Shown here: positions 18,755 to 33,043 of the stretch, piece after piece
Position numbering within the stretch: the stretch's first letter is position 1
Layout of the letters: the number at the start of each line of letters is the position of its first letter
From: Roseibaca sp. Y0-43
GTDB taxonomy: Bacteria; Pseudomonadota; Alphaproteobacteria; Rhodobacterales; Rhodobacteraceae
Assembly (NCBI RefSeq): GCF_020667835.1
Contig: NZ_JAFMPR010000012.1
Location: 1-48,978, forward strand
DNA: 48,978 nucleotides
Reading direction: 5' to 3'
Notes under the pieces: generated by a model
What the model was told of the DNA's origin: nothing
Databases searched by the model: none
Seen by the model: only the letters and a program-made list of their open reading frames with translations
Made by a program: the position numbers and the translations under genes

Positions 18755-20263
18755 ATGGGCAACGCGATCGCATATCTCGTGCTGCTGACATGGCCCTTGG
18801 CCATTCTGGTCATGTTCAAGCGCATGTCGCCCGAGCGGGCCTTTATCTGGTCCATCCTGGGCGGCTACATGTTGCTGCCGCAACTGACGCGCGTGGGCCT
18901 GCCGCTATTGCCCGACCTCGACAAGGTGCTGATCCCGAACGTGACCGCCTTCATCCTGTGCCTTGCGCTGGTGCGCGAGCGCGTGGCGGTAGTGCCGCAG
19001 AATCCGCTTGTTCGGGTGCTGTTGGTTCTGTTCATCCTGTCACCCGCCTTCACGGTGTTCACCAACACCGAAGCGCTGCAATTCGGCATCGTCACATCCG
19101 ACTACACCACGTGGATGGGCATTTTCACGCCCGCGAATGCCATGATCCCCGGCTTGCGCGTCTACGACTCGCTTTCCGTCGTGGTGGCGCAGATCATTTT
19201 CATGCTGCCCTTCTTCCTTGCGCGCAGCCTGCTCGCGCATGAGCGCGCTTTGGCCGAACTGCCGCGCGCGCTGGTGGTGGCCGGGCTGATCTATTCGGCC
19301 CCCATCCTGATCGAGAACGCCATCGGGCCGGAAATGCACCGCATGGTCTACGGCTATATCCAGCACGATTACGGCCAGTCCATCCGCTTTGGCGGCTTCC
19401 GTCCCTATGTGTTCATGCCCCACGGGTTGTGGGTCGCGTTCTTTGCCATGATGTGCTTTGCCTCGGCACTGCTGCAAGCGCGGCAGGCAAGCCCGGCAGA
19501 GCGCACGCGCGCGGTGATGATCGCGGTCTGGCTGGGGTTGATGCTGGTTCTGTGTCGGTCGGTCGGGCCTTGGGCGCTGACGCTCGTGGTGGCCCCGCTG
19601 GTGCTGTTCTTCGGCCCGAAAATGCAGCTGCGCGTCGCGTCCATGATGGCGGTGACGGCGCTGGCCTACCCGCTTTTGCGCGGCTCTGGCATCGTGCCCG
19701 CCGATGCAATGGTGCGTTTCGTCGCGGGTATTTCCGAGGATCGCGCCGAATCCCTTGGCTACCGCTTTACCAACGAAGACCTGCTTCTGGAGCGCGCCGC
19801 CGACAAGCCATGGTTCGGCTGGGGCGCATGGGGCCGCAACCTTGTTTATGACCCCGAAACGGGCGAGGCGATCACCATTTCCGACGGTCAATGGATCATC
19901 ACCATCGGGCAAGCGGGTTGGCTGGGCTATATCGCAACCTTCGGCTTGCTGTGTGTCCCCATCTTCGCGGTCTGGTGGCGGTATCGGCAAATGCCGAATG
20001 CCGATATTCCCAAGGTGGTCGGCCTGCTTGCACTTCTGCTGGGCGCGAACCTTGTCGACCTGTTGCCCAACGCAACGCTTATCCCTTTCACATGGCTGCT
20101 GGCGGGCGCGCTTTTGGGCCATGCCGAATTGCAGGCCAACCGCGTGCAGGCCGCGCGCCTGAGCAAACTGCAAGCCGCGCCCACCCGACGCACGCTTTTG
20201 GCCACCGCGCAGCCCAAACGCACAGCCGCCCAATTTCGTTCCGAACAGGACCAGATGTCATGA
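18755..20263 (+). CDS. O-antigen ligase/Wzy-type polytopic membrane protein
   Basis: A 502-residue integral membrane protein with about eleven hydrophobic helices. The periplasmic loop contains R-F-T-N-E-D-L-L-L-E-R-A-A-D-K-P followed by W-F-G-W-G-A-W-G-R-N, matching the loop preceding the last helices in the O-antigen ligase/Wzy superfamily. Such enzymes polymerise or transfer lipid-linked glycan in the periplasm. The tail after the last helix is a basic cytoplasmic stretch of about 60 residues. Its stop overlaps the PKS start (ATGA). Whether it polymerises or ligates, and what acceptor it uses, is not readable; the PKS/NRPS product or a glycan are both possible. Confidence 0.75.
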   Translation: MGNAIAYLVLLTWPLAILVMFKRMSPERAFIWSILGGYMLLPQLTRVGLPLLPDLDKVLIPNVTAFILCLALVRERVAVVPQNPLVRVLLVLFILSPAFTVFTNTEALQFGIVTSDYTTWMGIFTPANAMIPGLRVYDSLSVVVAQIIFMLPFFLARSLLAHERALAELPRALVVAGLIYSAPILIENAIGPEMHRMVYGYIQHDYGQSIRFGGFRPYVFMPHGLWVAFFAMMCFASALLQARQASPAERTRAVMIAVWLGLMLVLCRSVGPWALTLVVAPLVLFFGPKMQLRVASMMAVTALAYPLLRGSGIVPADAMVRFVAGISEDRAESLGYRFTNEDLLLERAADKPWFGWGAWGRNLVYDPETGEAITISDGQWIITIGQAGWLGYIATFGLLCVPIFAVWWRYRQMPNADIPKVVGLLALLLGANLVDLLPNATLIPFTWLLAGALLGHAELQANRVQAARLSKLQAAPTRRTLLATAQPKRTAAQFRSEQDQMS

Positions 20264-23200
20264 GTACCGAGCAGAATTTCAACGAAAACGACATTGCCAT
20301 CATCGGCATGGCCGCGCATTTGCCCGGTGCTGCATCCGTGTCCGAATTCTGGGACAACCTGCGCGCGGGCCGCTCCTCTATCCGCAAGCTGTCGGAACAG
20401 GAATTGCTGGACGCGGGCGAAAGCGCCGCGATGCTGCGCAAGCCCAATTACGTGCCCTATGCTGCCCCGTTGGACGGGTTTGCAGAATTCGACCCTGACC
20501 TCTTCGGCTTTTCCCCGAAAGAGGCCGCGATCCTTGACCCCCAACATCGCCAGTTTCTGGAAGTGGCGTGGGAAGCGTTCGAGAATGCAGGCCACCCGCC
20601 GCGCGGCGAAAAGGGCACCGTGGGCGTGTTTTCCGGCTGTGGCATGGGCAGCTATTTCTACTTCAACATCTGCTCGAACCCGCATCTGGTCGATGATGTG
20701 GGCATGTTCCTGTTGCGCCATACGGGCAATGACAAGGATTTCCTGACAACCCGCGTCAGCCATATCCTGGACCTGCACGGGCCTTCGGTAAACGTGCAGA
20801 CGGCGTGCTCGACCTCGCTTGTGGCCGTGCATTACGCGGTGAACGCGCTGCTGACGGGTGAGTGTGACATGGCGCTTGCGGGCGGCGTGACAATCGAGCT
20901 GCCTCAGGGGCGCGGCTATCTTTACAAGGAAAACGAGATCCTTTCGCCCGACGGCGCGTGCCATGCGTTCGATCATCGCGCCCAAGGCACCGTGTTCGGC
21001 TCTGGCGCGGGCGCGGTCGTGCTGCGCCGGCTGGCCGATGCCGTGGCCGATGGCGACCGGATCATCGCGGTCATAAAGGGGACCGCCATCAACAACGATG
21101 GCGCACAAAAGGCGGGCTATCTGGCCCCGTCTGTCGAGGGGCAGGCACAGGCGATTGCCGAAGCCCATCAAATCGCAAGCGTGCCGTCGGACAGCATCTC
21201 TTACGTCGAATGCCACGGCACGGGCACCTATCTGGGCGACCCGATAGAGGTCGCGGCCCTGACGCAAGCCTTCAACAGCGACAAGACCGGGTTTTGCCGG
21301 ATCGGGTCGGTGAAAACAAATATCGGCCATCTGGACACGGCTGCGGGCGTGGCCAGCCTGATCAAGGTCGCCAGCGCGCTTCAGCACCGCGAATTGCCGC
21401 CATCGCTGGGGTATGAGGCCCCGAACCCCGCGATTGATTTCGAACATTCGCCCTTTGTCGTGAACGACACTCTGACGCCGTGGCAGGCCTATGGCCCCTT
21501 GCGCGCGGGCGTCAATAGCCTTGGCGTAGGCGGCACCAACGCGCATATCGTGCTGGAAGAAGCACCTGCGCGCGCGCCGTCAGACGAAAGCGACTGGCCG
21601 TTCCAGATCCTGACGCTTTCGGCCAAATCCAAGGCCGCGCTTGGGGCGAATGCCCAGCGCTTGGCCGCGCATCTGCGCACGCACCCCGAGCAGCCCTTGG
21701 CCGATGTGGCCTTTACCCTGAAAGAAGGGCGCACAGAGCTGGACCAGCGCCGCGTTGTCGTGGCCGAAACCCATGCAGAGGCCGCCGACCTGCTGGAGCA
21801 GGACCACCCCCGCCGCGTGTTTACCCATACAGCACTCGACCGCCCCGACATGGTCTTCATGTTCCCCGGCGGCGGCGCGCAATACGCGGGCATGGCGCGC
21901 GAGCTTTATGAGACGGAACCGGTCTTTGCCGAATGGATGGACCGCGGTTTGGACCATCTGCAACCCAAGCTCGACTATGACATCCGCGCTTTGTGGCTGC
22001 CCGAAAAGGGGGCCGAGGCAGCGGCAAATGCCGCGCTGACCCGTCCTTCGGTGCAGCTTCCGCTCATCATGATTACCGAATACGCGCTGGCGCAGATGTT
22101 CATGGGCTGGGGGGTAGAGCCGCAGGTTCTGGTCGGCCATTCCATGGGCGAGAACACCGCCGCCTGCCTGGCCGGTGTCATGTCGTTCGAGGATTGCATC
22201 GGCCTTGTCCATTTGCGCGGGCAGTTGTTCGACACGGTGCCCGCGGGCGGCATGTTGTCGGTGCCCTTGTCGCTGGATGCGTTGCAGCCCTATCTGGATG
22301 ACGACCACGATATCGCCTCTGTCAATGCACCCGAACTGACGGTGATTTCAGGCCCGCAAGCGGCGCTGGACCGTTTGCAGGCCAAGCTGGCAGCGGACGA
22401 GATCGACGCCACCCGCGTCGCTATCGACATTGCCGCGCATAGCCGGATGCTGGACCCGATCCTGGGCGCGTTCGGCGATTACCTGCGGTCGATCCCGTTG
22501 CACGCGCCGCGCTTGCCCATCATCTCTAACCGGACCGGCGAAGTGCTGAGCGACGCGGACGCAACCAACCCGGATTACTGGGTGCAGCACCTACGCAACA
22601 CGGTCCGATTTGCCGATTGCATTGGCACGCTCAGCCAGACCCCGAACCGGATTTATATCGAAATGGGTCCGGGCAAGGCGCTGTCGTCGCTTGCGCGGAT
22701 GCATGGCGCGGTGCCGGGCCAGCAGGTGCTGGCTGCCCTGCGCCACCCGGATGAAGAGATCGCGGATGACCTGTATCATCTGGGCGTTCTGGCGCGCATC
22801 TGGGCCTTGGGCGGCACGTTCGACTGGGCGCAAATCTGGGGTGATGCCAAGCGCCACCGGGTCGAGTTGCCGACCTATGCCTTCCAGCGCGCGCGCTATT
22901 TCATCGAACCCGGCCAAAGCACCGCCACGGCCGCGCCGCAGCTGGAGCGGATCGACGATATCTCCAACTGGGGCACCAAGATCGCGTGGAAGCCCGCCTA
23001 TGCCGATTGCGACATCGACATCGCGACCGAACTTGGGCGCGATCCGCAGACATGGCTGGTCTTCGCGGACGAGGACGGCACCGCCGCCCCGGTCATCGAC
23101 CGCTTGCGCCGCGCAGGCCACAAGGTGGTCGAGGTGCGCGCGGGCGATACCTATGCGCGCAAGTCCGACACCCTTTTCACCCTTGCCCCCGAACATGGGC

Positions 23201-26200
23201 GCGAGGCCTATGCGCGGCTGCTGGCCGATCTGATCGCCAGCGGCACCGCGCCCACGCGGATCGCGCATTTCTGGCTGGTTACGGGCAAAGAGCGGTTCCG
23301 CCCCGGTTCCAGCTTCCTGCACCGCAATATAGAGCAGGGTTTTTACGCGCTGATGTTCCTGGCGCAGGCCATGCAAAGCGAAACCCTTCCGCAGCCGGTG
23401 CATATGGTCGTCTTCACCAATGGCGCGCAGGCGCTGGAGGGCGAGGCGCTGCGCTACCCGGAAAAGGCCATGATCGCCGGTCCCGCCCGCGTGGCCCCGC
23501 ATGAAATCGCTGGCCTGACCTGCGCGACGCTGGATATTGATGCCAGCGCCACGCCCGAAATGCTTCTGGAAGAGATGTGCGCGGCCCCCGCCAGCACCAC
23601 CGCGCTGTTGCGCGCCGGCAAGCGCTACGGGCAGGTTTTGCGCCCCGTCACCCTGCCCAACGCCGTGCCGGACATTCCCGAAGGCGCGCATTGGGTCATC
23701 ACCGGGGGGTTTGGCGGTATTGGCCTTAGCTTGGCCGAAGACCTGATCGCACGGTTCAAGGCCAAGATCACGCTTGTTGCCCGCACACCCCTGCCCGACC
23801 GCGCCGATTGGCTGGCTTGGCAAGCAAACCACAGCCCCGCCGACCCGACCACGCGCCGCATTCTGGCGGTCGAGCGGCTGGAAGCCTTGGGCGGGCAGGT
23901 GCATGTCGCGGGCGCCGATGTCTGCAACATTGACCAGATGCGCGACGCACTTGCGGCAGCCACGCAGGCCCATGGCGCGCCTTATGGTCTGATCCATGCC
24001 GCGGGCCACATGGCCGATGCACCGTTGCTGGCAAAATCCACGGGCGACGTGGAAGAGGTTTTCGCCCCCAAGCTGCACGGCCTGCGCGTGCTTGACAGCC
24101 TGTTGCCCGATGGCTCCTTGGACGTGATGGTGCTGTTTTCGTCCAGCTCCACCTTGACCGCGCCGATCGGGCAGGTCGATTACGTCGCCGCGAATGAATA
24201 CCTGAACGCCTTTGCCCGCGCGCGGGTGGGCGGAAAAACCCGCGTGATCGCGCTGGATTGGGGCATCTGGGCCGAAGCGGGCATGGCTGCCGACGCGATG
24301 GCAACGCGGCTGGGCCAGACGCCCAGCACGCCCGCCAGCCCTTGCGCCCAACCGCTTTATGCCGAGATGGGGTTCGACTCGGCAGGCAATCGCCGCCTGA
24401 CCACGACACTGGACAGCACCCATTGGATTGTCGACCAGCACCGCACCCGCGACGGTGCGGCCATCCTGCCCGGCACCGGTTATCTGGACTTGGCCGCACA
24501 AGCGCTGCGTGCCCAGGGCGAAACCGCCGCGTTCGAGCTGCGCGACCTCTATTTTTTCCGCGCGCTGGCCGTGGCCGATGGCGGCGCGCGCAAGCTGCGC
24601 GCCACGCTTGCCCGCACGCCCGAAGGCTATGATTTCAGCCTGCGTTCGGATGTCATGCAGGGCGGGTCAGAGGGGTATGTGCTGAATGCGCAGGCGCAGA
24701 TCGCGCTGCTGCCCGCAGGCAGCCGTCCCGCCCCCATCGACCTTGCCGCCATTGCCGCGCGCTGCCCGGACGTGACCGAAGGGCAAGGGCTGGCCAGCCC
24801 GCAAGAGGCGCATCTGGCCTTCGGGCCGCGCTGGCGGGTGCTGAACCGCACGGCTTACGGCACGGGCGAGGGGCTGGCGCATCTGGCGCTGCCCGACGCG
24901 TTCACGGACGACCTGCGCGCGGGCCACATCCTGCACCCCGCGCTGATGGATCTAGCGACCGGTTGGGCCATGGGGCTGATCCCCGGCTATAACGGCGCGC
25001 ATCTGTGGGTGCCCTTGTCCTATGGCAGCCTGCGCGTCTGGTCCGATCTGCCGCAGCAGATCCTCAGCCATGCCCGCTTGCGCAGCGACAGCGATCCGGG
25101 CTTCGCCAGTTTCGACATCACGCTCGCCACGCCCGAGGGCGCGGTGGTGGCAGAGATCACGCGCTTCACCATCAAACGGCTGGAGCAAGGCAGCTTCGCC
25201 GATGCACCGCCGATCCGTGCCACAGAGGTGGAACGCGACCAACAGGTCAACGCCACGCTCTCGCCCGCCGAGGAACGGCTGCGCGACATGCTGGCGCTGG
25301 GGATCAAACCGTCCGAAGGGGCCGAGGCCTTCTTGCGCGCGCTGACCCTTGGGGTCTCGCCGCTTGTGGTGTCGTCCATCGACCCCAAGGCCCTGATCGC
25401 GCAGGTCGCGGCAGAAGCCAGCGCCCCCGCGCCCGAAGGCGGGTTCGAGCGGCCCGATCTGGGCACCGACTACATCGCCCCGCGCAATGACGTGGAACGC
25501 ACCCTGACCGGCCTGTGGCAAAGCCTGCTGGGCATTGACCAGATCGGGGTCGAGGACAATTTCTTCGACTTGGGCGGTCATTCGCTGATCGCGGTGCGCC
25601 TGTTTGCACAGGTCAAGAAAGCCTATGGCGTGGATTTCCCCATTTCCGTGCTGTTCGAAGCGCCCACAATCGCCGCCTGCGCCGCGATGATCGCAGAACA
25701 GACCGGTGCCAGCCTGGGCGATAACGGCGCATCCTCTGGCGACAACGTGGTGCAACTGCCCAAGCGCCGCCGCTTCAAGCACCTTGTGCCCATGCATGAC
25801 GGCGAGGGGGGCGCGAAGCCGCCCTTCTTCCTGGTCGCGGGCATGTTCGGCAATGTGCTGAACCTGCGCCATCTGGCCACGCTCGCAGGCCGCGATCGCC
25901 CCTTCTACGGGCTGCAAGCGCGCGGGCTGTTCGGCGGCGAAGCCCCGCATGACCGCATAGAGGACGCCGCCGCCGACTACATTGCCGAAATCCGGCAGGT
26001 GCAGCCACATGGCCCCTACAGCCTTGGCGGGTTCTCTGGCGGCGGGATCACCGCCTACGAGATGGCCCGCCAGCTCGAAGCCGCCGGAGAGGTGGTCGAG
26101 ATCGTGGTCATGCTGGACACTCCCCTGCCCAAACGCCCGACGCTCAGCGCGCCCGACAAGGCCATGATGAAGCTGGCCGAGCTGAAACGCAAAGGCCCGG

Positions 26201-26601
26201 CCTACCTGACGGAATGGTGGCAGGCGCGCAGCCGCTGGAAACGCAAGCTGGCCGATGGTCCGGCAACCGACAATGACGGCGCGTTCCACAATGCCGCGAT
26301 CGAAGCCGCGTTCCGCAAGGCGGTGGCAGAGTATGACGTGCAACCATGGGATGGACGACTGGTCCTGTTCCGCCCACCGCTCGACCGGCATTGGAAGGTG
26401 ACAGGCGGCAACTGGGTCAGCCGAGAGCGCGAATACGTGTTCCATGACAACCAATGGACCCAGTTCGCCCCGGCGCTGGAAGTGCACGAGGTGCCCGGCG
26501 ACCATGACAGCATGGTGCTGGAGCCGAATGTCCGTGTGCTGGCCGCCAAGCTGCAAACCCTGCTGCCTGACCTGCCCTGCTGCAAGGAGGCCGCGGAATG
26601 A
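20260..26601 (+). CDS. Type I polyketide synthase, KS-AT-KR-DH-ACP-TE
   Basis: A 2113-residue single-module PKS. Ketosynthase: Cys183 in T-A-C-S-T-S, His319 in E-C-H-G-T-G and His357 in N-I-G-H-L. Acyltransferase: Ser628 in G-H-S-M-G-E and His727. Ketoreductase: nucleotide loop G-G-F-G-G-I-G (about 1149-1155), with Ser1295, Tyr1308 and Asn1312. Dehydratase-like hot-dog domain: His1394, then Asp1564 in H-P-A-L-M-D. Carrier: Ser1775 in D-L-G-G-H-S-L. Thioesterase: Ser1926 in G-F-S-G-G-G, Asp1953, His2082. The KR lies before the DH, the reverse of the usual order. There is no loading or enoylreductase domain, and AT specificity is not clear from G-H-S-M-G-E. Start and stop overlap the neighbouring genes as ATGA. 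The terminal thioesterase marks this as a releasing module. Confidence 0.92.
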   Translation: MSTEQNFNENDIAIIGMAAHLPGAASVSEFWDNLRAGRSSIRKLSEQELLDAGESAAMLRKPNYVPYAAPLDGFAEFDPDLFGFSPKEAAILDPQHRQFLEVAWEAFENAGHPPRGEKGTVGVFSGCGMGSYFYFNICSNPHLVDDVGMFLLRHTGNDKDFLTTRVSHILDLHGPSVNVQTACSTSLVAVHYAVNALLTGECDMALAGGVTIELPQGRGYLYKENEILSPDGACHAFDHRAQGTVFGSGAGAVVLRRLADAVADGDRIIAVIKGTAINNDGAQKAGYLAPSVEGQAQAIAEAHQIASVPSDSISYVECHGTGTYLGDPIEVAALTQAFNSDKTGFCRIGSVKTNIGHLDTAAGVASLIKVASALQHRELPPSLGYEAPNPAIDFEHSPFVVNDTLTPWQAYGPLRAGVNSLGVGGTNAHIVLEEAPARAPSDESDWPFQILTLSAKSKAALGANAQRLAAHLRTHPEQPLADVAFTLKEGRTELDQRRVVVAETHAEAADLLEQDHPRRVFTHTALDRPDMVFMFPGGGAQYAGMARELYETEPVFAEWMDRGLDHLQPKLDYDIRALWLPEKGAEAAANAALTRPSVQLPLIMITEYALAQMFMGWGVEPQVLVGHSMGENTAACLAGVMSFEDCIGLVHLRGQLFDTVPAGGMLSVPLSLDALQPYLDDDHDIASVNAPELTVISGPQAALDRLQAKLAADEIDATRVAIDIAAHSRMLDPILGAFGDYLRSIPLHAPRLPIISNRTGEVLSDADATNPDYWVQHLRNTVRFADCIGTLSQTPNRIYIEMGPGKALSSLARMHGAVPGQQVLAALRHPDEEIADDLYHLGVLARIWALGGTFDWAQIWGDAKRHRVELPTYAFQRARYFIEPGQSTATAAPQLERIDDISNWGTKIAWKPAYADCDIDIATELGRDPQTWLVFADEDGTAAPVIDRLRRAGHKVVEVRAGDTYARKSDTLFTLAPEHGREAYARLLADLIASGTAPTRIAHFWLVTGKERFRPGSSFLHRNIEQGFYALMFLAQAMQSETLPQPVHMVVFTNGAQALEGEALRYPEKAMIAGPARVAPHEIAGLTCATLDIDASATPEMLLEEMCAAPASTTALLRAGKRYGQVLRPVTLPNAVPDIPEGAHWVITGGFGGIGLSLAEDLIARFKAKITLVARTPLPDRADWLAWQANHSPADPTTRRILAVERLEALGGQVHVAGADVCNIDQMRDALAAATQAHGAPYGLIHAAGHMADAPLLAKSTGDVEEVFAPKLHGLRVLDSLLPDGSLDVMVLFSSSSTLTAPIGQVDYVAANEYLNAFARARVGGKTRVIALDWGIWAEAGMAADAMATRLGQTPSTPASPCAQPLYAEMGFDSAGNRRLTTTLDSTHWIVDQHRTRDGAAILPGTGYLDLAAQALRAQGETAAFELRDLYFFRALAVADGGARKLRATLARTPEGYDFSLRSDVMQGGSEGYVLNAQAQIALLPAGSRPAPIDLAAIAARCPDVTEGQGLASPQEAHLAFGPRWRVLNRTAYGTGEGLAHLALPDAFTDDLRAGHILHPALMDLATGWAMGLIPGYNGAHLWVPLSYGSLRVWSDLPQQILSHARLRSDSDPGFASFDITLATPEGAVVAEITRFTIKRLEQGSFADAPPIRATEVERDQQVNATLSPAEERLRDMLALGIKPSEGAEAFLRALTLGVSPLVVSSIDPKALIAQVAAEASAPAPEGGFERPDLGTDYIAPRNDVERTLTGLWQSLLGIDQIGVEDNFFDLGGHSLIAVRLFAQVKKAYGVDFPISVLFEAPTIAACAAMIAEQTGASLGDNGASSGDNVVQLPKRRRFKHLVPMHDGEGGAKPPFFLVAGMFGNVLNLRHLATLAGRDRPFYGLQARGLFGGEAPHDRIEDAAADYIAEIRQVQPHGPYSLGGFSGGGITAYEMARQLEAAGEVVEIVVMLDTPLPKRPTLSAPDKAMMKLAELKRKGPAYLTEWWQARSRWKRKLADGPATDNDGAFHNAAIEAAFRKAVAEYDVQPWDGRLVLFRPPLDRHWKVTGGNWVSREREYVFHDNQWTQFAPALEVHEVPGDHDSMVLEPNVRVLAAKLQTLLPDLPCCKEAAE

Positions 26602-26602
26602 G
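26585..26602 (+). repeat. 18-bp direct repeat, left copy
   Basis: AGGAGGCCGCGGAATGAG, covering the PKS 3' end (E-A-A-E stop), a perfect Shine-Dalgarno and the first codons of the GIY-YIG gene. An identical copy lies exactly 920 bases downstream at 27505-27522, at the junction between the GIY-YIG gene and the glycosyltransferase gene. Confidence 0.9.
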
Positions 26603-27521
26603 CGAGACGGGATTCGGCCGCACAATCCAGCTTTTCCTTGTGGACGGGAAACCGACCGGATTGCGCAAAGCAAGTATTCACGGGTGGACAGGGCTTTTGT
26701 TCGTCAGCGGCGCATCCGCCTTCGGGGAGCTGACTGCGCGGACCGAAGTAGACCGCACAGGCGTTTACATCTTGGCCGGTCCTGACCCCGACCGCGCTGG
26801 CGCCACACGGGCCTATATAGGGTCTGGAAATTCGGTTTCGGAACGCATTAGGCAAAGCGCGTTGAAACGGGATTTCTGGGAAACCGCCGTCACCGTCACC
26901 ACCAGCGACGATGACCTGTCGAAAGGTCATGCCGAATACCTAGAGGCCCGCTTGATAGAGCTTGCAGGGCAAGCCGGCCGGGTCGCGCTGGACAATGGCA
27001 CAAAGCCCGCCATCACGCGCCGCCGTCTGCCCGAAGCGGACATCGCCAACATGGAACAGTTTCTAGCGAATTTGCGCATCATTTTGCCCGTGATCGGCCT
27101 CGACATGCTCAAGCCGCAACCGCGTGCTGTCAGCCAAACCTCGACGCCCGTGTCGGAACGCACACGCGGCGAGGTTCAGTTCGAAATCCGCCACAAGAGC
27201 GGCGTTCAAGCCACGGCGGTGGAAGAGGATGGCGAGTTTGTTGTTCTGGAAGGTTCGCAAGCTTTGGTTGCAACCGGATATGTTCAACAAAGCTACGGCG
27301 CGCTCAAGGAAAGGCTGATCGCGGATGGCGTGCTGATAAGCGATGCAGAGGGCAGGCTGAAATTCTCGAAACCGTGGTCTTTCAGCAGCCCTTCGGCAGC
27401 GGCGGCGGTCGTTCTGGACCGCAATAGCAACGGGCGGCTGGAGTGGAAGGTGAAAGACTCGAAGCAGACCTACCACGATTGGCAACAAGCCCGATCCAAG
27501 GAACAGGAGGCCGCGGAATGA
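26598..27521 (+). CDS. GIY-YIG nuclease family protein with DUF4357
   Basis: A 307-residue protein. The N-terminal half is a GIY-YIG domain: G-V-Y-I-L (residues 55-59), A-Y-I-G-S-G (72-77), the arginine of S-E-R-I-R (Arg83) and H-A-E-Y-L-E (His111, Glu113, Glu116). The C-terminal half contains the DUF4357 pattern, with S-S-P-S-A-A-A-A-V-V-L near residue 275, then N-G-R-L-E-W-K and a final W. Codon choice is visibly less GC-biased (frequent AAA, ATT, TTG, TTT) than in the genes around it, suggesting acquisition. It has no obvious part in polyketide or glycan synthesis. The flanking 18-bp repeats mean that removing 920 bases would rejoin the PKS and glycosyltransferase genes perfectly through one ATGA overlap. 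Confidence 0.85.
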   Translation: MSETGFGRTIQLFLVDGKPTGLRKASIHGWTGLLFVSGASAFGELTARTEVDRTGVYILAGPDPDRAGATRAYIGSGNSVSERIRQSALKRDFWETAVTVTTSDDDLSKGHAEYLEARLIELAGQAGRVALDNGTKPAITRRRLPEADIANMEQFLANLRIILPVIGLDMLKPQPRAVSQTSTPVSERTRGEVQFEIRHKSGVQATAVEEDGEFVVLEGSQALVATGYVQQSYGALKERLIADGVLISDAEGRLKFSKPWSFSSPSAAAAVVLDRNSNGRLEWKVKDSKQTYHDWQQARSKEQEAAE

Positions 27522-27522
27522 G
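27505..27522 (+). repeat. 18-bp direct repeat, right copy
   Basis: Identical to the repeat at 26585-26602. This copy encodes the last residues E-A-A-E of the GIY-YIG protein, the ribosome-binding site AGGAGG and the start of the glycosyltransferase. The neighbouring bases differ between the copies, so the identity is limited to this 18-base unit. Confidence 0.9.
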
Positions 27523-28504
27523 TGCGCGTGTTCTGACGGTTATCCTGAATTACCGCACGCCCGAGATGACCCTGCGTGCCGCGCAGGCGGCGCGGGTGGC
27601 CATGGCGAAGCTCGCGGGCGAGATCGTGATCGTCGATAATGACAGCGGCGACGGGTCCGAGCGGATCCTGCGCGAGGGCACGGCGGGCTGGCCCAAGACG
27701 CGGGTCATCCAGTCGGGCCGCAATGGCGGCTATGGCGCGGGCAACAATGTGGGCATCCGCGCAGGGCTGTCGGATGGCACGAAGCCCGATTTCGTCTATC
27801 TGCTGAATTCCGACGCCTTCCCCGACCCCGACGCCATTGCCCGGTTGCGCAACTACCTTGTGGCCAATCCCGATTGTGGCTTTGCCGGCAGCCGGATCGT
27901 GGGCGAGGACGGGGGCGACCACGTCACCGCTTTCCGCTTCCATTCGGTCTGGTCGGAATTCGAACGCGCGGCCCATACCGGCCCGATTTCGAAACTGCTG
28001 CGCAAGCATATCGTTCCCATGGGCGTGCCCCGATCGCCCATGCGGGTCGATTGGTGCGCGGGCGCAAGCGTGATGTTTCGCCAAAGCGTGCTGGACCGTG
28101 TCGGCCTGTTCGACGAACGCTTCTTCCTGTATTTCGAGGAAACCGACCTGTGCCACCGCATCGCCGAGGCAGGCTGGCACGGCATGTTCCTGCCCGACAG
28201 CCGGGTTGTGCATGTGGGCGGTGCTTCTACCGGGGTCACGGAGCATGTGCGCAAACCGCCCTATTGGTTCGACTCGCGGTTTTTGTATTTCACCAAGCGC
28301 GGCGGGCGCGGCTACGCGGCGCTGGCGACGTTGGCCTACCTGGCCGGGGCCGGCATCTGGACGCTTCGGCGCATCATCGAACGCAAAGATGACCGCATTG
28401 CGCCACATTTCCTGCGCGATCTGGTGAAACACTCGGCGCGAAACCTGATGCCGGGCGCGGCGGCCTCTCGGGTCGGTAAAGGGGCACGCGAAGCGGCCCG
28501 TTAG
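27518..28504 (+). CDS. Family 2 glycosyltransferase
   Basis: A 328-residue cytosolic GT-A enzyme of the rhamnosyl/WcaA-like GT2 group. It has the N-terminal V-I-L-N-Y-R-T-P and I-V-I-V-D-N-D-S-G-D-G-S, N-R-x-G-Y-G-like G-R-N-G-G-Y-G-A-G-N-N, the DxD-like N-S-D-A-F-P (Asp99) and the acceptor/catalytic F-E-E-T-D-L-C (Asp210). It transfers a sugar from a nucleotide donor, in this context perhaps to an undecaprenyl-linked glycan or to the PKS/NRPS product. The ATG at 27518 overlaps the previous stop as ATGA, and AGGAGG stands eight bases upstream. The NRPS follows after nine bases. Confidence 0.88.
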   Translation: MSARVLTVILNYRTPEMTLRAAQAARVAMAKLAGEIVIVDNDSGDGSERILREGTAGWPKTRVIQSGRNGGYGAGNNVGIRAGLSDGTKPDFVYLLNSDAFPDPDAIARLRNYLVANPDCGFAGSRIVGEDGGDHVTAFRFHSVWSEFERAAHTGPISKLLRKHIVPMGVPRSPMRVDWCAGASVMFRQSVLDRVGLFDERFFLYFEETDLCHRIAEAGWHGMFLPDSRVVHVGGASTGVTEHVRKPPYWFDSRFLYFTKRGGRGYAALATLAYLAGAGIWTLRRIIERKDDRIAPHFLRDLVKHSARNLMPGAAASRVGKGAREAAR

Positions 28505-28513
28505 AGGTTTGGT

Positions 28514-31500
28514 ATGAATTTTGACAGCATCCTGATTGGCGACGAAACCCTGACCGCAGAATGCGGCGCGCAGATTTTGGCGCGCGGGCATGGCATAAAG
28601 GCTGTCGTGACCGAAAACCCGCGCGTGGCCGATTGGGCCAAGACCGCCGGGCTGAGCGTGTTGGCCCCCGGCGCGGGCCTTTCCGCGCGCCTTGCAGGCC
28701 TGCAAGTGGATTGGCTGTTCAACGTGGCCGGGCTGCGGATGTTGCCGCGCGACGTGTTGGACCTGCCACGACTGGGTGCGATCAATTTCCACGATGGCCC
28801 GTTGCCGCGCCATGCGGGACTGAATGCCCCGGTCTGGGCCTTGCTGGAGGGCGCGCACCAGCATGGTATTGCTTGGCACATCATGGAAGATGGGGTCGAT
28901 ACCGGCGATGTGCTGGTCCGCGCCGATTTCGAGATCTCAGCCGAGGATACCGCGCTGACGCTGAACACCAAATGCTTCAGCGCCGGTCTGGACAGTTTCG
29001 CGCGCGTTCTGGACATGTTGGAGGCGGGACAGCTTGACCGCCAGCCGCAGGACATGGCCGCGCGCACGGTTCACGCCCGCGCCGACCGCCCTGCGCTTGG
29101 CGGGCAGATCGACCCGCGCCAGACGATGGCCGACATCATGCGCCTTGTGCGCGCCATGGACCATGGCCCCTATTGGAACCCGCTGACCACGCCCAAGCTG
29201 CGACTGGGCGATATGGTCGTTTGCGTGGGCCAGGCGGAGGTGGCAGAGGACCACGCCACGCCGGGCACCGTGCTGGATGTGACCGAAGACAGCCTGACCA
29301 TGGCCTGCGCGGATGGCGCGCTGCGCTTCTCGGGCCTGACCTGCCAGCAGGGCCAGCCGCTTTTGCCTGCGGCACTTGTGGCTGCAGGCGACAGTGTCGT
29401 CGCGCCCGATGCACGTCTGCATGACGTCATGGTGCAGGTCGCAAATGCGGAAACCGGCTATCGCAACGCTCTCGGGGCGGGCACGCTCGGCCTTGGCCGG
29501 GGCGTGGCGTCTCAGACGCTGGCGCTGGATGTGGCCACTAGCGACAGCGCGCAGTTGATCGCCGCCTTCGCGGGCGCGCTGGCGGCGCGATTCGGCCGCC
29601 CTGCCCTGTCGCTTGCCTATGCCACGCGTGCGGGCAAGGATCTGGCCGACCATGCGCCCGATTTCATGCTGGGCTGGGTGCCGCTGTCGGTGCAAATGGA
29701 CGAGTCTGGCCCGCTGACCAGCCTTGCCAGCCAGATCAGCCGCGCCAATCGCGCGCCCGCCATGGCGCGCGATCTGCCCGCGCGCGAGCCATCGCTTGGC
29801 CCGATTGCCCCGCCGGAGCTGGCCGTGACAGACGGCACCGCGACCGATGCGGCGCTGGTTCTGGACCTGTCCGGCCCCTGCCTGCGCTTTGACCCGGCTT
29901 GCCTGTCGCAAGATCAGGCCGAAGCGCTCAGGGCGCAGGTCGAACTCATTGCCCCCAAGCTGGCCGATATGCCGCTTGCGGCGCAGATCACCGCGCCGGA
30001 ACCGCAAGCCGATGACAGCGTGCGGCCCTATGACCGCATCTGCATCCACCACGCGTTCGAGGCGCAGGTGGCCAAGACCCCTGAAGCCGAGGCGCTGGCC
30101 TTTGAACAGCAAAGCCTGACCTATGCAGAGCTGAACGCCCGCGCCAACCGCGTGGCGCATATCCTGCGGGGCATGGGGCTGCGCCCTGATACGCCGGTAG
30201 CACTTTGTGCAAAACGCGGGCCAAATCTGCTGATCGGGGCCTTGGGCATTCTGAAAGCGGGCGGGGCGTATGTGCCGCTCGACCCGGCCTATCCGGCGGA
30301 CCGGCTGGCGCATTACCTTGGCGATTCCGGCGCGCCGATTGTCGTGACCGAACACGCGCTTCTGGATATGCTTCCGGACAGCGACGCAGAAGTGCTGCAA
30401 CTGGACACCGACGCCCGTTTGGCACATGCGCCCGACACCAACCCTGAAAGCGCGGTGACGCCCGACAATCTGGCCTATGTCATCTACACATCGGGGTCGA
30501 CCGGCACGCCCAAGGGGGTGATGGTTGAACACGGCAATGTCGCCAATTTCTTTGCCGGCATGGATGATCGCATCCGCCATGACCCGCCCGGCGTGTGGCT
30601 GGCGGTCACGTCGCTCAGCTTCGACATTTCCGTTCTGGAACTGTTCTGGACGCTCGCGCGCGGCTTCAAGGTCGTGCTGATGGGTGATGAGGACCGCGCG
30701 ATGGCGGCCCGCGGCCCGGTGCGCGTGTCCGAGGGGCACATGGATTTCAGCCTCATGTATTGGGGCAATGACGATGGCCAAGGCCCGCAGAAATACCACC
30801 TGCTGCTGGAAGGCGCGAAATTCGCCGACACGCATGGCTTCTGCGCCGTCTGGACGCCCGAGCGGCATTTCCACGCCTTCGGTGGCCCTTTTGCCAACCC
30901 GTCCGTCTCGGGCGCGGCAGTCGCGGCTGTGACCAAGAATATCGCCGTGCGTGCCGGTTCTTGCGTGGCACCGCTGCATTCGCCCATCCGCATTGCCGAA
31001 GAATGGGCGATGATCGACAACCTGACCAACGGGCGCACCGGCATCGGCATCGCATCGGGCTGGCACCCGGTCGATTTCGTCATCCGCCCCGAAAACCGCC
31101 CGCCCCACAACAAGGCGGCGATGTTCGACACGCTCGACACCCTGCGCAAGCTGTGGCGTGGCGAGGCGGTCGAATTCGACAAGGGCGATGGCATGGTGCC
31201 AATCCAGACGCTGCCGCGCCCCGTCTCGTCCGAATTGAACATCTGGCTGACCACGGCGGGCAACCCCGAAACATGGCGCGAGGCCGGGCGCTTGGGCGCG
31301 CATGTGCTGACCCACCTGCTGGGCCAGTCGATTGACGAGGTCGCCGGTAAGATCAAGATCTACCATGAGGCCCTGCGCGAAGCAGGGTATGACCCCGCCA
31401 AGTTCACCGTCACGCTGATGCTGCACACCTTCGTCGCACGCGACCGCGACCATGCGCGCGAAGTGGCGCGCGGGCCGATGAAAAGCTACCTCAAGGCCGC

Positions 31501-33043
31501 CGCCGCGCTGGTAAAGCAATACGCCTGGGCCTTCCCGGCATTCAAACGGCCAGAGGGCGCCAAGAACCCGATGGATATTGACCTGTCCACCCTGTCCGAG
31601 GACGAGGTGGAGGGCATTCTGGACTACGCCTTCAACCGCTATTTCGAGGATTCGGGGCTGTTCGGCACGGTTGACGACTGCATCGAACGGGTCGAGCAAC
31701 TGAAAGCCATCGGCGTGAATGAAGTGGCCTGCCTGATCGACTATGGCATCGCGACCGAGCAGGTTCTGGAAGGGCTTTACCCGCTGGCCGAAGTGGTCAA
31801 GCGCGCGAATGCCGGGCTGCAACTGCCCGATGACGACTTCTCGCTGGCAGCCCAAATCCTGCGCCACAAGGTCACGCATCTGCAATGCACACCGTCCATG
31901 GCCCGTATGCTGTGCCTGAGCGACGAGGCGCGCATGGCGTTGGCCACGGTGCCGAATGTCATGGTGGGTGGCGAAGCACTGCCGTGTGCCTTGGCGCAAG
32001 ACCTTGCGGAATTGACCGGACAGCCCGTGCGCAACATGTATGGCCCGACAGAAACGACCATCTGGTCCTCGACCAACCTGTCACGCGGTGGCGCGGGCGT
32101 GGTGGGCCTTGGCGCGCCGATTGCGAACACAAGCCTGCATGTGCTGGACGACGCCCAGCGCCCGGTCCCGCTTGGGGCCGAGGGCGAGCTGTATATCGGC
32201 GGCGACGGCGTGACGCGCGGCTATTGGAACCGCCCCGAGATGACCGCCGAGCGGTTCATCCCGAACCCGTTCGGACAAGGGCGGCTATACCGCACGGGCG
32301 ATCTGGTGCGCCGCAACCCGGCGGGGGGCATCGACTTCCTTGGGCGGGTGGACAACCAGGTCAAACTGCGCGGCCACCGCATAGAACTGGGCGAGATCGA
32401 AGCCGTGCTGGAAGATCAGCCCGGCATCACCGCCGCCGTGGTCATTGCGCGCGAAGATCAGCCGGGCGATGTGCGGCTGGTGGCCTATTACACCGGCACA
32501 CCAACGGGCGATCTGCGCGCCGCACTGGCCGGGCGTCTGACCGCGCATATGCTGCCCGCGCATTTCGTGCCCATGGCCAGCCTGCCGCTGACGCCGAACA
32601 AGAAGATCGACCGCAAGGCGCTGCCTGCGCCTGCGCAAGCCGCGCCAATGCCAGACGCCCCGCGCGCGACCGCGCAGGCCAGCGCGGGCACCCAGGCCAG
32701 CATCGCGCAAGTCTGGCAAGATGTGTTGGGCGTAGCGCAGGTCTCTGCGTCTGACAATTTCTTCAAGCTGGGTGGGCATTCGCTGCTGGCAGTGCAGGCG
32801 CATCGCGAATTGCGAACGCGCCTGAACATGCCGGGCCTGTCGATTACCGACATTTTCCGCTTCCCGGTGCTGGGCGATCTGGCCCGCCATCTGGACGGCA
32901 AACAACGCCCGCAAGCCGTGGCCAGCGTGCAACCCTTGCACCCGAATCCCGAAACCCCACCGCCCGCGAGCGCTGCGCCAGACCGCATGGATGCCATGGC
33001 GCGCCGCAGAGCGATGCGCGACAGAAGGGCAGGTTCGAAATGA
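28514..33043 (+). CDS. NRPS: formyltransferase - C-like remnant - A domain with embedded monooxygenase - carrier
   Basis: A 1509-residue protein. Residues 1-170 are a methionyl-tRNA formyltransferase-like domain with its catalytic Asn91 and His93 (I-N-F-H-D-G-P-L-P) and the aspartate of G-V-D-T-G-D (129). An OB-like tail follows to about 300. Residues 300-480 resemble the back half of a condensation domain, without a H-H-x-x-x-D-G motif. The adenylation domain then begins: Y-T-S-G-S-T-G-T-P-K-G (658-668) and F-D-I-S (Asp704). A luciferase-like FMN monooxygenase of the MupA/Atu3671 type is inserted (about 743-1095), and the A domain resumes with Y-G-P-T-E-T (about 1176) and the A7-A10 motifs. 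A carrier domain ends it (Ser1423). The conserved Asp704 fits an alpha-amino acid substrate. Formylation and hydroxylation of the bound residue are inferred from the domains. Confidence 0.88.
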   Translation: MNFDSILIGDETLTAECGAQILARGHGIKAVVTENPRVADWAKTAGLSVLAPGAGLSARLAGLQVDWLFNVAGLRMLPRDVLDLPRLGAINFHDGPLPRHAGLNAPVWALLEGAHQHGIAWHIMEDGVDTGDVLVRADFEISAEDTALTLNTKCFSAGLDSFARVLDMLEAGQLDRQPQDMAARTVHARADRPALGGQIDPRQTMADIMRLVRAMDHGPYWNPLTTPKLRLGDMVVCVGQAEVAEDHATPGTVLDVTEDSLTMACADGALRFSGLTCQQGQPLLPAALVAAGDSVVAPDARLHDVMVQVANAETGYRNALGAGTLGLGRGVASQTLALDVATSDSAQLIAAFAGALAARFGRPALSLAYATRAGKDLADHAPDFMLGWVPLSVQMDESGPLTSLASQISRANRAPAMARDLPAREPSLGPIAPPELAVTDGTATDAALVLDLSGPCLRFDPACLSQDQAEALRAQVELIAPKLADMPLAAQITAPEPQADDSVRPYDRICIHHAFEAQVAKTPEAEALAFEQQSLTYAELNARANRVAHILRGMGLRPDTPVALCAKRGPNLLIGALGILKAGGAYVPLDPAYPADRLAHYLGDSGAPIVVTEHALLDMLPDSDAEVLQLDTDARLAHAPDTNPESAVTPDNLAYVIYTSGSTGTPKGVMVEHGNVANFFAGMDDRIRHDPPGVWLAVTSLSFDISVLELFWTLARGFKVVLMGDEDRAMAARGPVRVSEGHMDFSLMYWGNDDGQGPQKYHLLLEGAKFADTHGFCAVWTPERHFHAFGGPFANPSVSGAAVAAVTKNIAVRAGSCVAPLHSPIRIAEEWAMIDNLTNGRTGIGIASGWHPVDFVIRPENRPPHNKAAMFDTLDTLRKLWRGEAVEFDKGDGMVPIQTLPRPVSSELNIWLTTAGNPETWREAGRLGAHVLTHLLGQSIDEVAGKIKIYHEALREAGYDPAKFTVTLMLHTFVARDRDHAREVARGPMKSYLKAAAALVKQYAWAFPAFKRPEGAKNPMDIDLSTLSEDEVEGILDYAFNRYFEDSGLFGTVDDCIERVEQLKAIGVNEVACLIDYGIATEQVLEGLYPLAEVVKRANAGLQLPDDDFSLAAQILRHKVTHLQCTPSMARMLCLSDEARMALATVPNVMVGGEALPCALAQDLAELTGQPVRNMYGPTETTIWSSTNLSRGGAGVVGLGAPIANTSLHVLDDAQRPVPLGAEGELYIGGDGVTRGYWNRPEMTAERFIPNPFGQGRLYRTGDLVRRNPAGGIDFLGRVDNQVKLRGHRIELGEIEAVLEDQPGITAAVVIAREDQPGDVRLVAYYTGTPTGDLRAALAGRLTAHMLPAHFVPMASLPLTPNKKIDRKALPAPAQAAPMPDAPRATAQASAGTQASIAQVWQDVLGVAQVSASDNFFKLGGHSLLAVQAHRELRTRLNMPGLSITDIFRFPVLGDLARHLDGKQRPQAVASVQPLHPNPETPPPASAAPDRMDAMARRRAMRDRRAGSK

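Follow-up and report, generated by a model that had tools for sequence, protein, structure and literature searches.

The subject of this analysis is a 48,978-nucleotide stretch of the genome of Roseibaca sp. Y0-43 (contig NZ_JAFMPR010000012.1; hereafter the window), in which a gene for a predicted nuclease of the GIY-YIG/DUF4357 kind lies inserted between a type I polyketide synthase (PKS) gene and a glycosyltransferase gene. The insert joins both neighbors through overlapping stop and start codons and is bounded by two copies of an 18-bp sequence. The genes and repeat copies concerned are the following, with protein tails in one-letter code.

20260..26601, + strand: type I PKS, the upstream target gene; Pfam KS, AT, DH, KR, ACP and thioesterase domains on a longer open reading frame (ORF), the start codon at 20260 being placed by the ATGA overlap with the preceding gene
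26585..26602, + strand: left copy of the 18-mer, made of the PKS gene's own EAAE-stop tail, a ribosome-binding site and the overlapping ATGA; the same junction is present in empty congeners
26598..27521, + strand: inserted GIY-YIG/DUF4357 gene, 307 aa, PADLOC PDC-S14; assigned by Pfam, PADLOC and conserved residues
27505..27522, + strand: right copy of the 18-mer, made of the inserted gene's own EQEAAE-stop tail and serving as ribosome-binding site for the next gene
27518..28504, + strand: family 2 glycosyltransferase, the downstream target gene; Pfam Glycos_transf_2 (5.5e-14), adjoining the PKS gene in 20 empty congeners

The 18-mer AGGAGGCCGCGGAATGAG occurs in two exact copies spaced 920 bases apart, and a scan of the whole window found no third copy within 3 mismatches (0.07 expected). 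None of 100 shuffles of the window held two 18-mer matches. The inserted ORF shares an ATGA overlap with the PKS stop codon and another with the glycosyltransferase start codon, and its G+C fraction at third codon positions (GC3) is 0.679, against 0.798 for the PKS gene and 0.796 for the glycosyltransferase gene. On all these points, namely the repeat and its spacing, the seamless fit at a coupled junction and a codon use less GC-rich than that of the neighbors, the original prediction made from the sequence of this stretch was right. It had also held that the CCGCGGA between ribosome-binding site and start would not be expected to match by chance, and this needs qualification: the spacer codes for the Glu-Ala-Ala-Glu in which both proteins end, so that its bases are not free to vary, and the junction form GAGGCNGCNGAATGA recurs in the source genome (six occurrences, both window copies included; none for the reversed control).

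That this foreign-looking gene was inserted at the junction is evident from related genomes. Among 37 genomes of the genus that were searched, 23 carry the glycosyltransferase gene, and 22 of these are readable at the junction, the sequence of G008 being cut off. Since 20 of the 22 are empty and two are occupied, the gene is an insertion, and the empty sites foreseen by the original prediction do exist. The occupied sites are those of the source genome and of G034 (contig L073), another species in which the insert and its boundaries are the same as in the window. An assembly artefact was considered and rejected because of these identical boundaries, though the L073 contig is short (3050 bases) and has a stated coverage of 0.8. 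In 15 empty genomes the PKS and glycosyltransferase genes overlap through ATGA, the PKS protein ending in EAAE in 12 and in KAAE in 3; the other five show a script-read gap of 5 or 8 bases, and one of them (G029) still has the motif. A single copy matching 17 of the 18 bases of the 18-mer lies at the empty site of G015. Further along the same cluster, positions 28514-33043 of the window encode a 1509-aa protein with formyl transferase, AMP-binding, luciferase-like monooxygenase and carrier domains (Pfam).

The inserted protein carries DUF4357 (PF14267) at its C-terminus (Pfam 8e-16, 58.2 bits against a gathering score of 38.4), as do all 41 aligned homologues, and five PADLOC models of PDC-S14 match it over nearly its whole length (best 4.6e-114). 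A RAMA match reaches only 0.006, under its cut-off; an NCBIfam search with the protein gave no match, and a profile search against solved structures was uninformative. The Pfam GIY-YIG profile (PF01541) is reached at a loose threshold by five of the 41 members, the window protein not among them, with a best E-value of 0.0073. Residues G55, Y57, Y73, G75, R83, H111, E116 and N133 do not vary among the 41 homologues (broken copies stand outside the alignment), giving the pattern G55-x-Y57, Y73-x-G75, R83, E116 and N133, which we take to correspond to the GIY-YIG active site and to the residues of I-TevI. Comparison of the source genome with G034 gives a dN/dS (ratio of nonsynonymous to synonymous substitution rates) of 0.038, only a rough value as dS is saturated, which indicates purifying selection on the inserted gene. 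In G303 (L309, upstream of a 329-aa ORF) the gene is reduced to a 161-aa in-frame remnant that has lost residues about 80-225 and with them the catalytic core, and that retains its start, its tail and both coupled junctions; coupling was therefore kept even where the nuclease core was lost.

Homologues matching at 1e-60 were found in 14 of 394 genomes of the family and in 18 of 390 genomes of the order (source genome included), and at 1e-30 in 29 of 72,556 plasmid records, five of which were read. Two viral contigs had a match, as did two of 50,697 phage records, in each case with less than 40% identity. Loci from named genomes numbered 73. Removal of identical proteins and of proteins under 280 aa left 85 distinct rows. 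In 38 of these the gene is overlapped at either end by an ORF of 100 codons or more, and these 38 entered the junction test. The EAAE motif stands on the left in 15 of the 38, on both sides in 11 and on the right only in none. Coupled junctions that hold a homologue lie in unrelated operons, namely of the ABC-importer, ABC-exporter, formate-dehydrogenase-like and hsdM-hsdS kinds, and many of the upstream genes end in GAGGCNGCNGA-ATGA, i.e., EAAE-stop overlapping the next start. Twenty-one downstream ORFs form one cluster, the two members that were checked (L089 and L121) having a type I specificity domain and an N6-methylase upstream; of the 11 rows that bear the motif on both sides, seven have a methylase-type gene upstream, judged by cluster. 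On plasmid and at many chromosomal loci, the homologues adjoin methylase, specificity or helicase genes.

Other copies sit in operons that we class as non-defense. The left side bears the motif in the PKS-glycosyltransferase context (window and L073), at an ABC exporter pair (L100 and L108, with L144 showing a shorter EAE tail), in an ABC importer with an ABC-3 permease (L086, zinc type by our reading), in a second ABC importer (L162, phosphonate type by our reading) and at an iron-sulfur/molybdopterin pair (L068 and L140, the same protein; formate dehydrogenase by our reading). It is absent from the left side in L097 (aminotransferase and phosphatase), L088 (before an MFS transporter) and L085 (an unclassified pair). 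These gene families are backed by Pfam, L085 being without a match; L107, L141 and L159 were not Pfam-classified. The left motif in five of eight non-defense contexts corresponds to a binomial p of 9e-9 at a background of 1.1% and of 4e-4 at 10%.

The tails of these homologues bear on the nature of the 18-bp repeat, which the original prediction had ascribed to duplication of the target by an element. Of its two copies, the left one is the tail of the PKS gene, which empty sites already have, and the right one is the tail of the nuclease gene itself: similar tails are found in homologues at other sites, KQEAAE ending 11 of the 85 distinct homologues and near forms such as QEAAQ and QEAVE ending further ones. 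Where EAAE stands at both ends (11 rows), third codon positions agree within a locus in 8 of 22 cases, against a mean of 8.18 for shuffled pairs (p 0.64), and the length of the in-register match varies between 2 and 20 bp; in G034 the two copies differ at one Ala codon. Target-site duplication was therefore rejected, and the flanking repeats do not derive from one target sequence as those of a transposon-like element would. As copies differ in G034 and third positions are unpaired within loci, the perfect match in the window is partly luck at a synonymous site. Judged from these tails, the 18-bp repeat is homology that predates the insertion, two EAAE-stop/ATGA junctions having been brought together, rather than a copied target.

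How unusual such homology is can be gauged from 449 kb of the source genome (the window and fetched stretches, some picked for holding the motif), screened with a rough coding filter. The 47 ATGA junctions that passed, which do not include the window's own two because these failed the filter, make 1081 pairs, with a longest in-register identity through ATGA of 10 bp; the 18-bp repeat exceeds every match among the other coupled junctions sampled. The 449 kb hold 55 coupled junctions, from which approximately 370 would be expected per genome, 28 of the 55 with a ribosome-binding-like 4-mer, and the four other motif sites of the genome amount to approximately 1% (a rough figure). In 340 kb whose choice did not depend on the motif, there are 88 candidate junctions and none has an EAAE end. 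The DUF4357 gene is found at none of the four other motif sites; one has nothing but a 24-codon frame after it, and the remaining three are, by our reading, fdsB-fdsA, a metal importer and a nitrate-reductase-like pair. Counts of the motif per family genome go up to 15 as judged by eye, the reversed control giving one match in each of four genomes.

The state of other junctions before insertion was read in relatives without a close homologue, for fdsB (18 loci of 30 fetched) and phnC (20 of 30), in both cases all but the most distant, and for znuC and the exporter (all 30 each), the occupied locus being set apart in every case. The upstream gene ends in EAAE in 9/17 loci for fdsB, 5/29 for znuC (two of the five stopping with TAA), 7/29 for the exporter and 5/19 for phnC. 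One of the nine fdsB loci, that of G078 (L171/L148), carries in this operon, behind a small ORF, a DUF4357 gene of 41% identity; this gene lies in the fdsB-fdsA gap that a closer homologue fills in L068, and it ends EVAE-stop/ATGA before the next gene. At the exporter site, three congeners of G161 were read: in two of them the upstream gene ends in EAA and is uncoupled, and in the third, G706, it ends EAAE/ATGA. Among 15 hsdM loci without the gene, only L311 has an EAAE end; its hsdM (about 60% identical) joins the next ORF, of 454 aa, through GAGGCAGCAGA-ATGA. The motif-bearing state therefore exists before insertion and is far from universal.

Inserts and flanks were compared by synonymous divergence (dS, synonymous substitutions per synonymous site). 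Between the source genome and G034, dS is 2.88 for the inserted genes, which is saturated (proportion of synonymous differences, pS, 0.734), against 0.46-0.47 for the PKS end and 0.58 for the glycosyltransferase gene. Ranked by synonymous sites, the G034 copy is 37th of 79 from the window copy and the window copy 21st of 79 from the G034 copy, and the two proteins are sisters in the tree (100/96). A single old insertion inherited by both genomes is disfavored because the genes are saturated at synonymous sites and the flanks are not. The same difference suggests repeated arrival or replacement; the PKS site fits either related lineages arriving separately or a single arrival with replacement later on. 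At the exporter site (L100/L108), dS is 0.87 for the gene and 0.23 and 0.28 for the flanks, L108 ranking fifth of 79 from L100. In none of three hsdM pairs does the gene outpace hsdM (0.37/0.60, 0.30/0.39 and 0.88/1.47), and in two helicase-type pairs gene and neighbor are close (0.40/0.32 and 0.45/0.52). The gene dS is 0.31 vs 0.17 in L141/L164 and 0.29 vs 0.03 for the upstream neighbor in the restriction-type pair L109/L113; further pairs are saturated. One further row was dropped for the first tree, and the second and third were built from 56 and 55 rows after removal of long-branched and near-identical ones; tests in which the three exporter-site copies (p 0.38) or seven non-defense copies (p 0.116) were held together rejected neither grouping.

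From these observations we propose, with a probability of roughly 60%, that the gene belongs to a family of mobile, start-to-start single-gene cassettes that enter matching translational-coupling junctions through short homology. The unit moved would reach from the ATG of the gene to the point where its own tail ends, i.e., from one start codon to the next. The tail of the upstream gene would serve as the ribosome-binding site of the cassette, and the tail of the cassette would supply an equivalent site to the downstream gene, so that both neighbors stay coupled. Members of the family would enter EAAE-stop/ATGA junctions more often than the rarity of these junctions predicts. Donor and recipient may recombine through 15-20 bp per side, or a cassette may be excised and re-enter through one repeat, and the protein's own predicted nuclease may start the event, as in the GIY-YIG-mediated cassette suggested by the original prediction. 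Operons of the form hsdM-gene-hsdS with the motif at both gene ends are possible donors; given the methylase-type gene upstream in seven of the 11 double-motif rows, short-homology exchange or excision and re-entry could yield the observed pattern.

Several findings weigh against this proposal. Many empty relatives end otherwise than in EAAE, and the EAAE-stop/ATGA form is found in 369 of 394 family genomes, meaning that some matching arises without insertion. Ordinary genes can bear EAAE/ATGA at both ends with no DUF4357 gene (L326 and L327), small ORFs follow fdsB in L174, L175, L179 and G078, and different ORFs of 189 and 190 aa stand after the EAAE end of the methylase-type hsdM and before the DUF4357 gene in L092 (from 5349) and L110 (from 5411); the site may thus be open to any gene. 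The right side of L068 is not seamless, about 150 bases preceding the start of the next gene. The count of five in eight is small and unreplicated, its contexts having been classed after the loci were seen, the 1.1% background leans on the rough ORF filter, and tree support is too low to count insertion events. As to the ORFs themselves, those of L174, L175 and L179 measure 68-72 aa and lie between an EAAE-ending fdsB-like gene and the next start, and the small ORFs after fdsB are presumably DUF4287; the ORF of L326 (2787-3026) is of 80 aa, and that of L327 (minus strand) is an ABC exporter pair gene with the same two ends.

It is also conceivable, if somewhat unlikely, that this is a defense gene placed for its own function, its position reflecting mere tolerance by the operon. 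The PDC-S14 match, the methylase, specificity or helicase neighbors in plasmid and many chromosomal loci, and the purifying selection all agree with such a role, which is compatible with the cassette proposal and by itself leaves the excess at EAAE junctions unexplained.

Homing proper, in which the GIY-YIG protein cuts an empty EAAE-stop/ATGA junction and repair of the break copies the gene in, with lineages adapted to particular junctions, appears unlikely. It would account for the eight invariant residues, for PKS-site copies that are sister proteins yet as different at synonymous sites as unrelated copies (flank dS about 0.5), and for the excess divergence at the exporter site, and the G303 remnant, coupled at both ends and without its core, resembles what worn-out homing genes may become. 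However, with the Pfam profile so weakly reached the nuclease is a predicted one, T4 Seg enzymes cut far from their own insertion site according to PMC2988022, and the restriction-modification or helicase neighbors of most homologues with identifiable context fit defense equally well. The L109/L113 values place excess divergence outside non-defense sites too. A bolder form, which we regard as unlikely too, is that a chromosomal free-standing homing nuclease targets the coupling junction (EAAE-stop/ATGA) itself, and that its presence in restriction-modification operons reflects this targeting and no defense role. If so, a target fixed by coding and ribosome binding would make entry into unrelated operons almost free of cost.

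Selection alone is a doubtful explanation as well: landing would be random, survivors would be those that fall between coupled genes and carry strong ribosome-binding sites, and the tails would be convergent. The motif is a common coupling form that ordinary genes can have at both ends, half of the sampled coupled junctions (28/55) have a ribosome-binding-like 4-mer, and insertions exist at other tails (L097, L085 and L088). Yet EAAE makes up approximately 1% of coupled junctions, a rough value, and marks five of eight non-defense sites, and the tails of the PKS gene and of the inserted gene each had the motif while apart. Target-site duplication by the element, for which the perfect 18-bp repeat of the window and repeats of 17 bp (L099) and 20 bp (L100) could be cited, is very improbable in view of the unpaired synonymous codons, the likeness of the right copy to homologue tails at unrelated sites and the variable length of the matched run.

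The proposed cassette would offer a concrete route by which a single gene can join a working operon and leave it unbroken, through start-to-start entry at a matching coupling junction, with a target that is short and defined. Among the matches listed for open literature on DUF4357, PDC-S14, guilt-by-embedding, hsd embedding, free-standing homing enzymes and overlapping codons, no report of a gene entering coupling junctions was found. Three known systems can be compared with it. PDC-S14 is listed by PADLOC as a phage-defense candidate, and candidates of the PDC series come from "guilt-by-embedding", as stated in PMC10855318. The window gene resembles PDC-S14 in the whole-protein match and in the many homologues inside restriction-modification operons, and differs in that it and several relatives are embedded in non-defense operons at the same kind of coupled junction. 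PDC-S14 would thus use junctions of one kind to enter hsdM-hsdS operons and operons of transporter, formate-dehydrogenase-like and polyketide genes, and embedding in a defense operon may tell of an entry site rather than of function. The free-standing GIY-YIG homing endonuclease genes of the phage T4 Seg family lie between conserved genes and are present or absent among relatives, as set out in PMC2988022. Here too a single GIY-YIG gene stands between conserved genes in some relatives and is absent from others, with empty and occupied forms of one site (20 and 2 of 22). Unlike the T4 enzymes, which cut at a distance, ours is a predicted nuclease encoded by a chromosomal bacterial gene, with a start-to-start ATGA fit and a DUF4357 domain. 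Finally, ATGA coupling is already described (PMC6728339), and both junctions of the insert are of that kind; the difference is that here the junction appears to be also an entry site for a gene.

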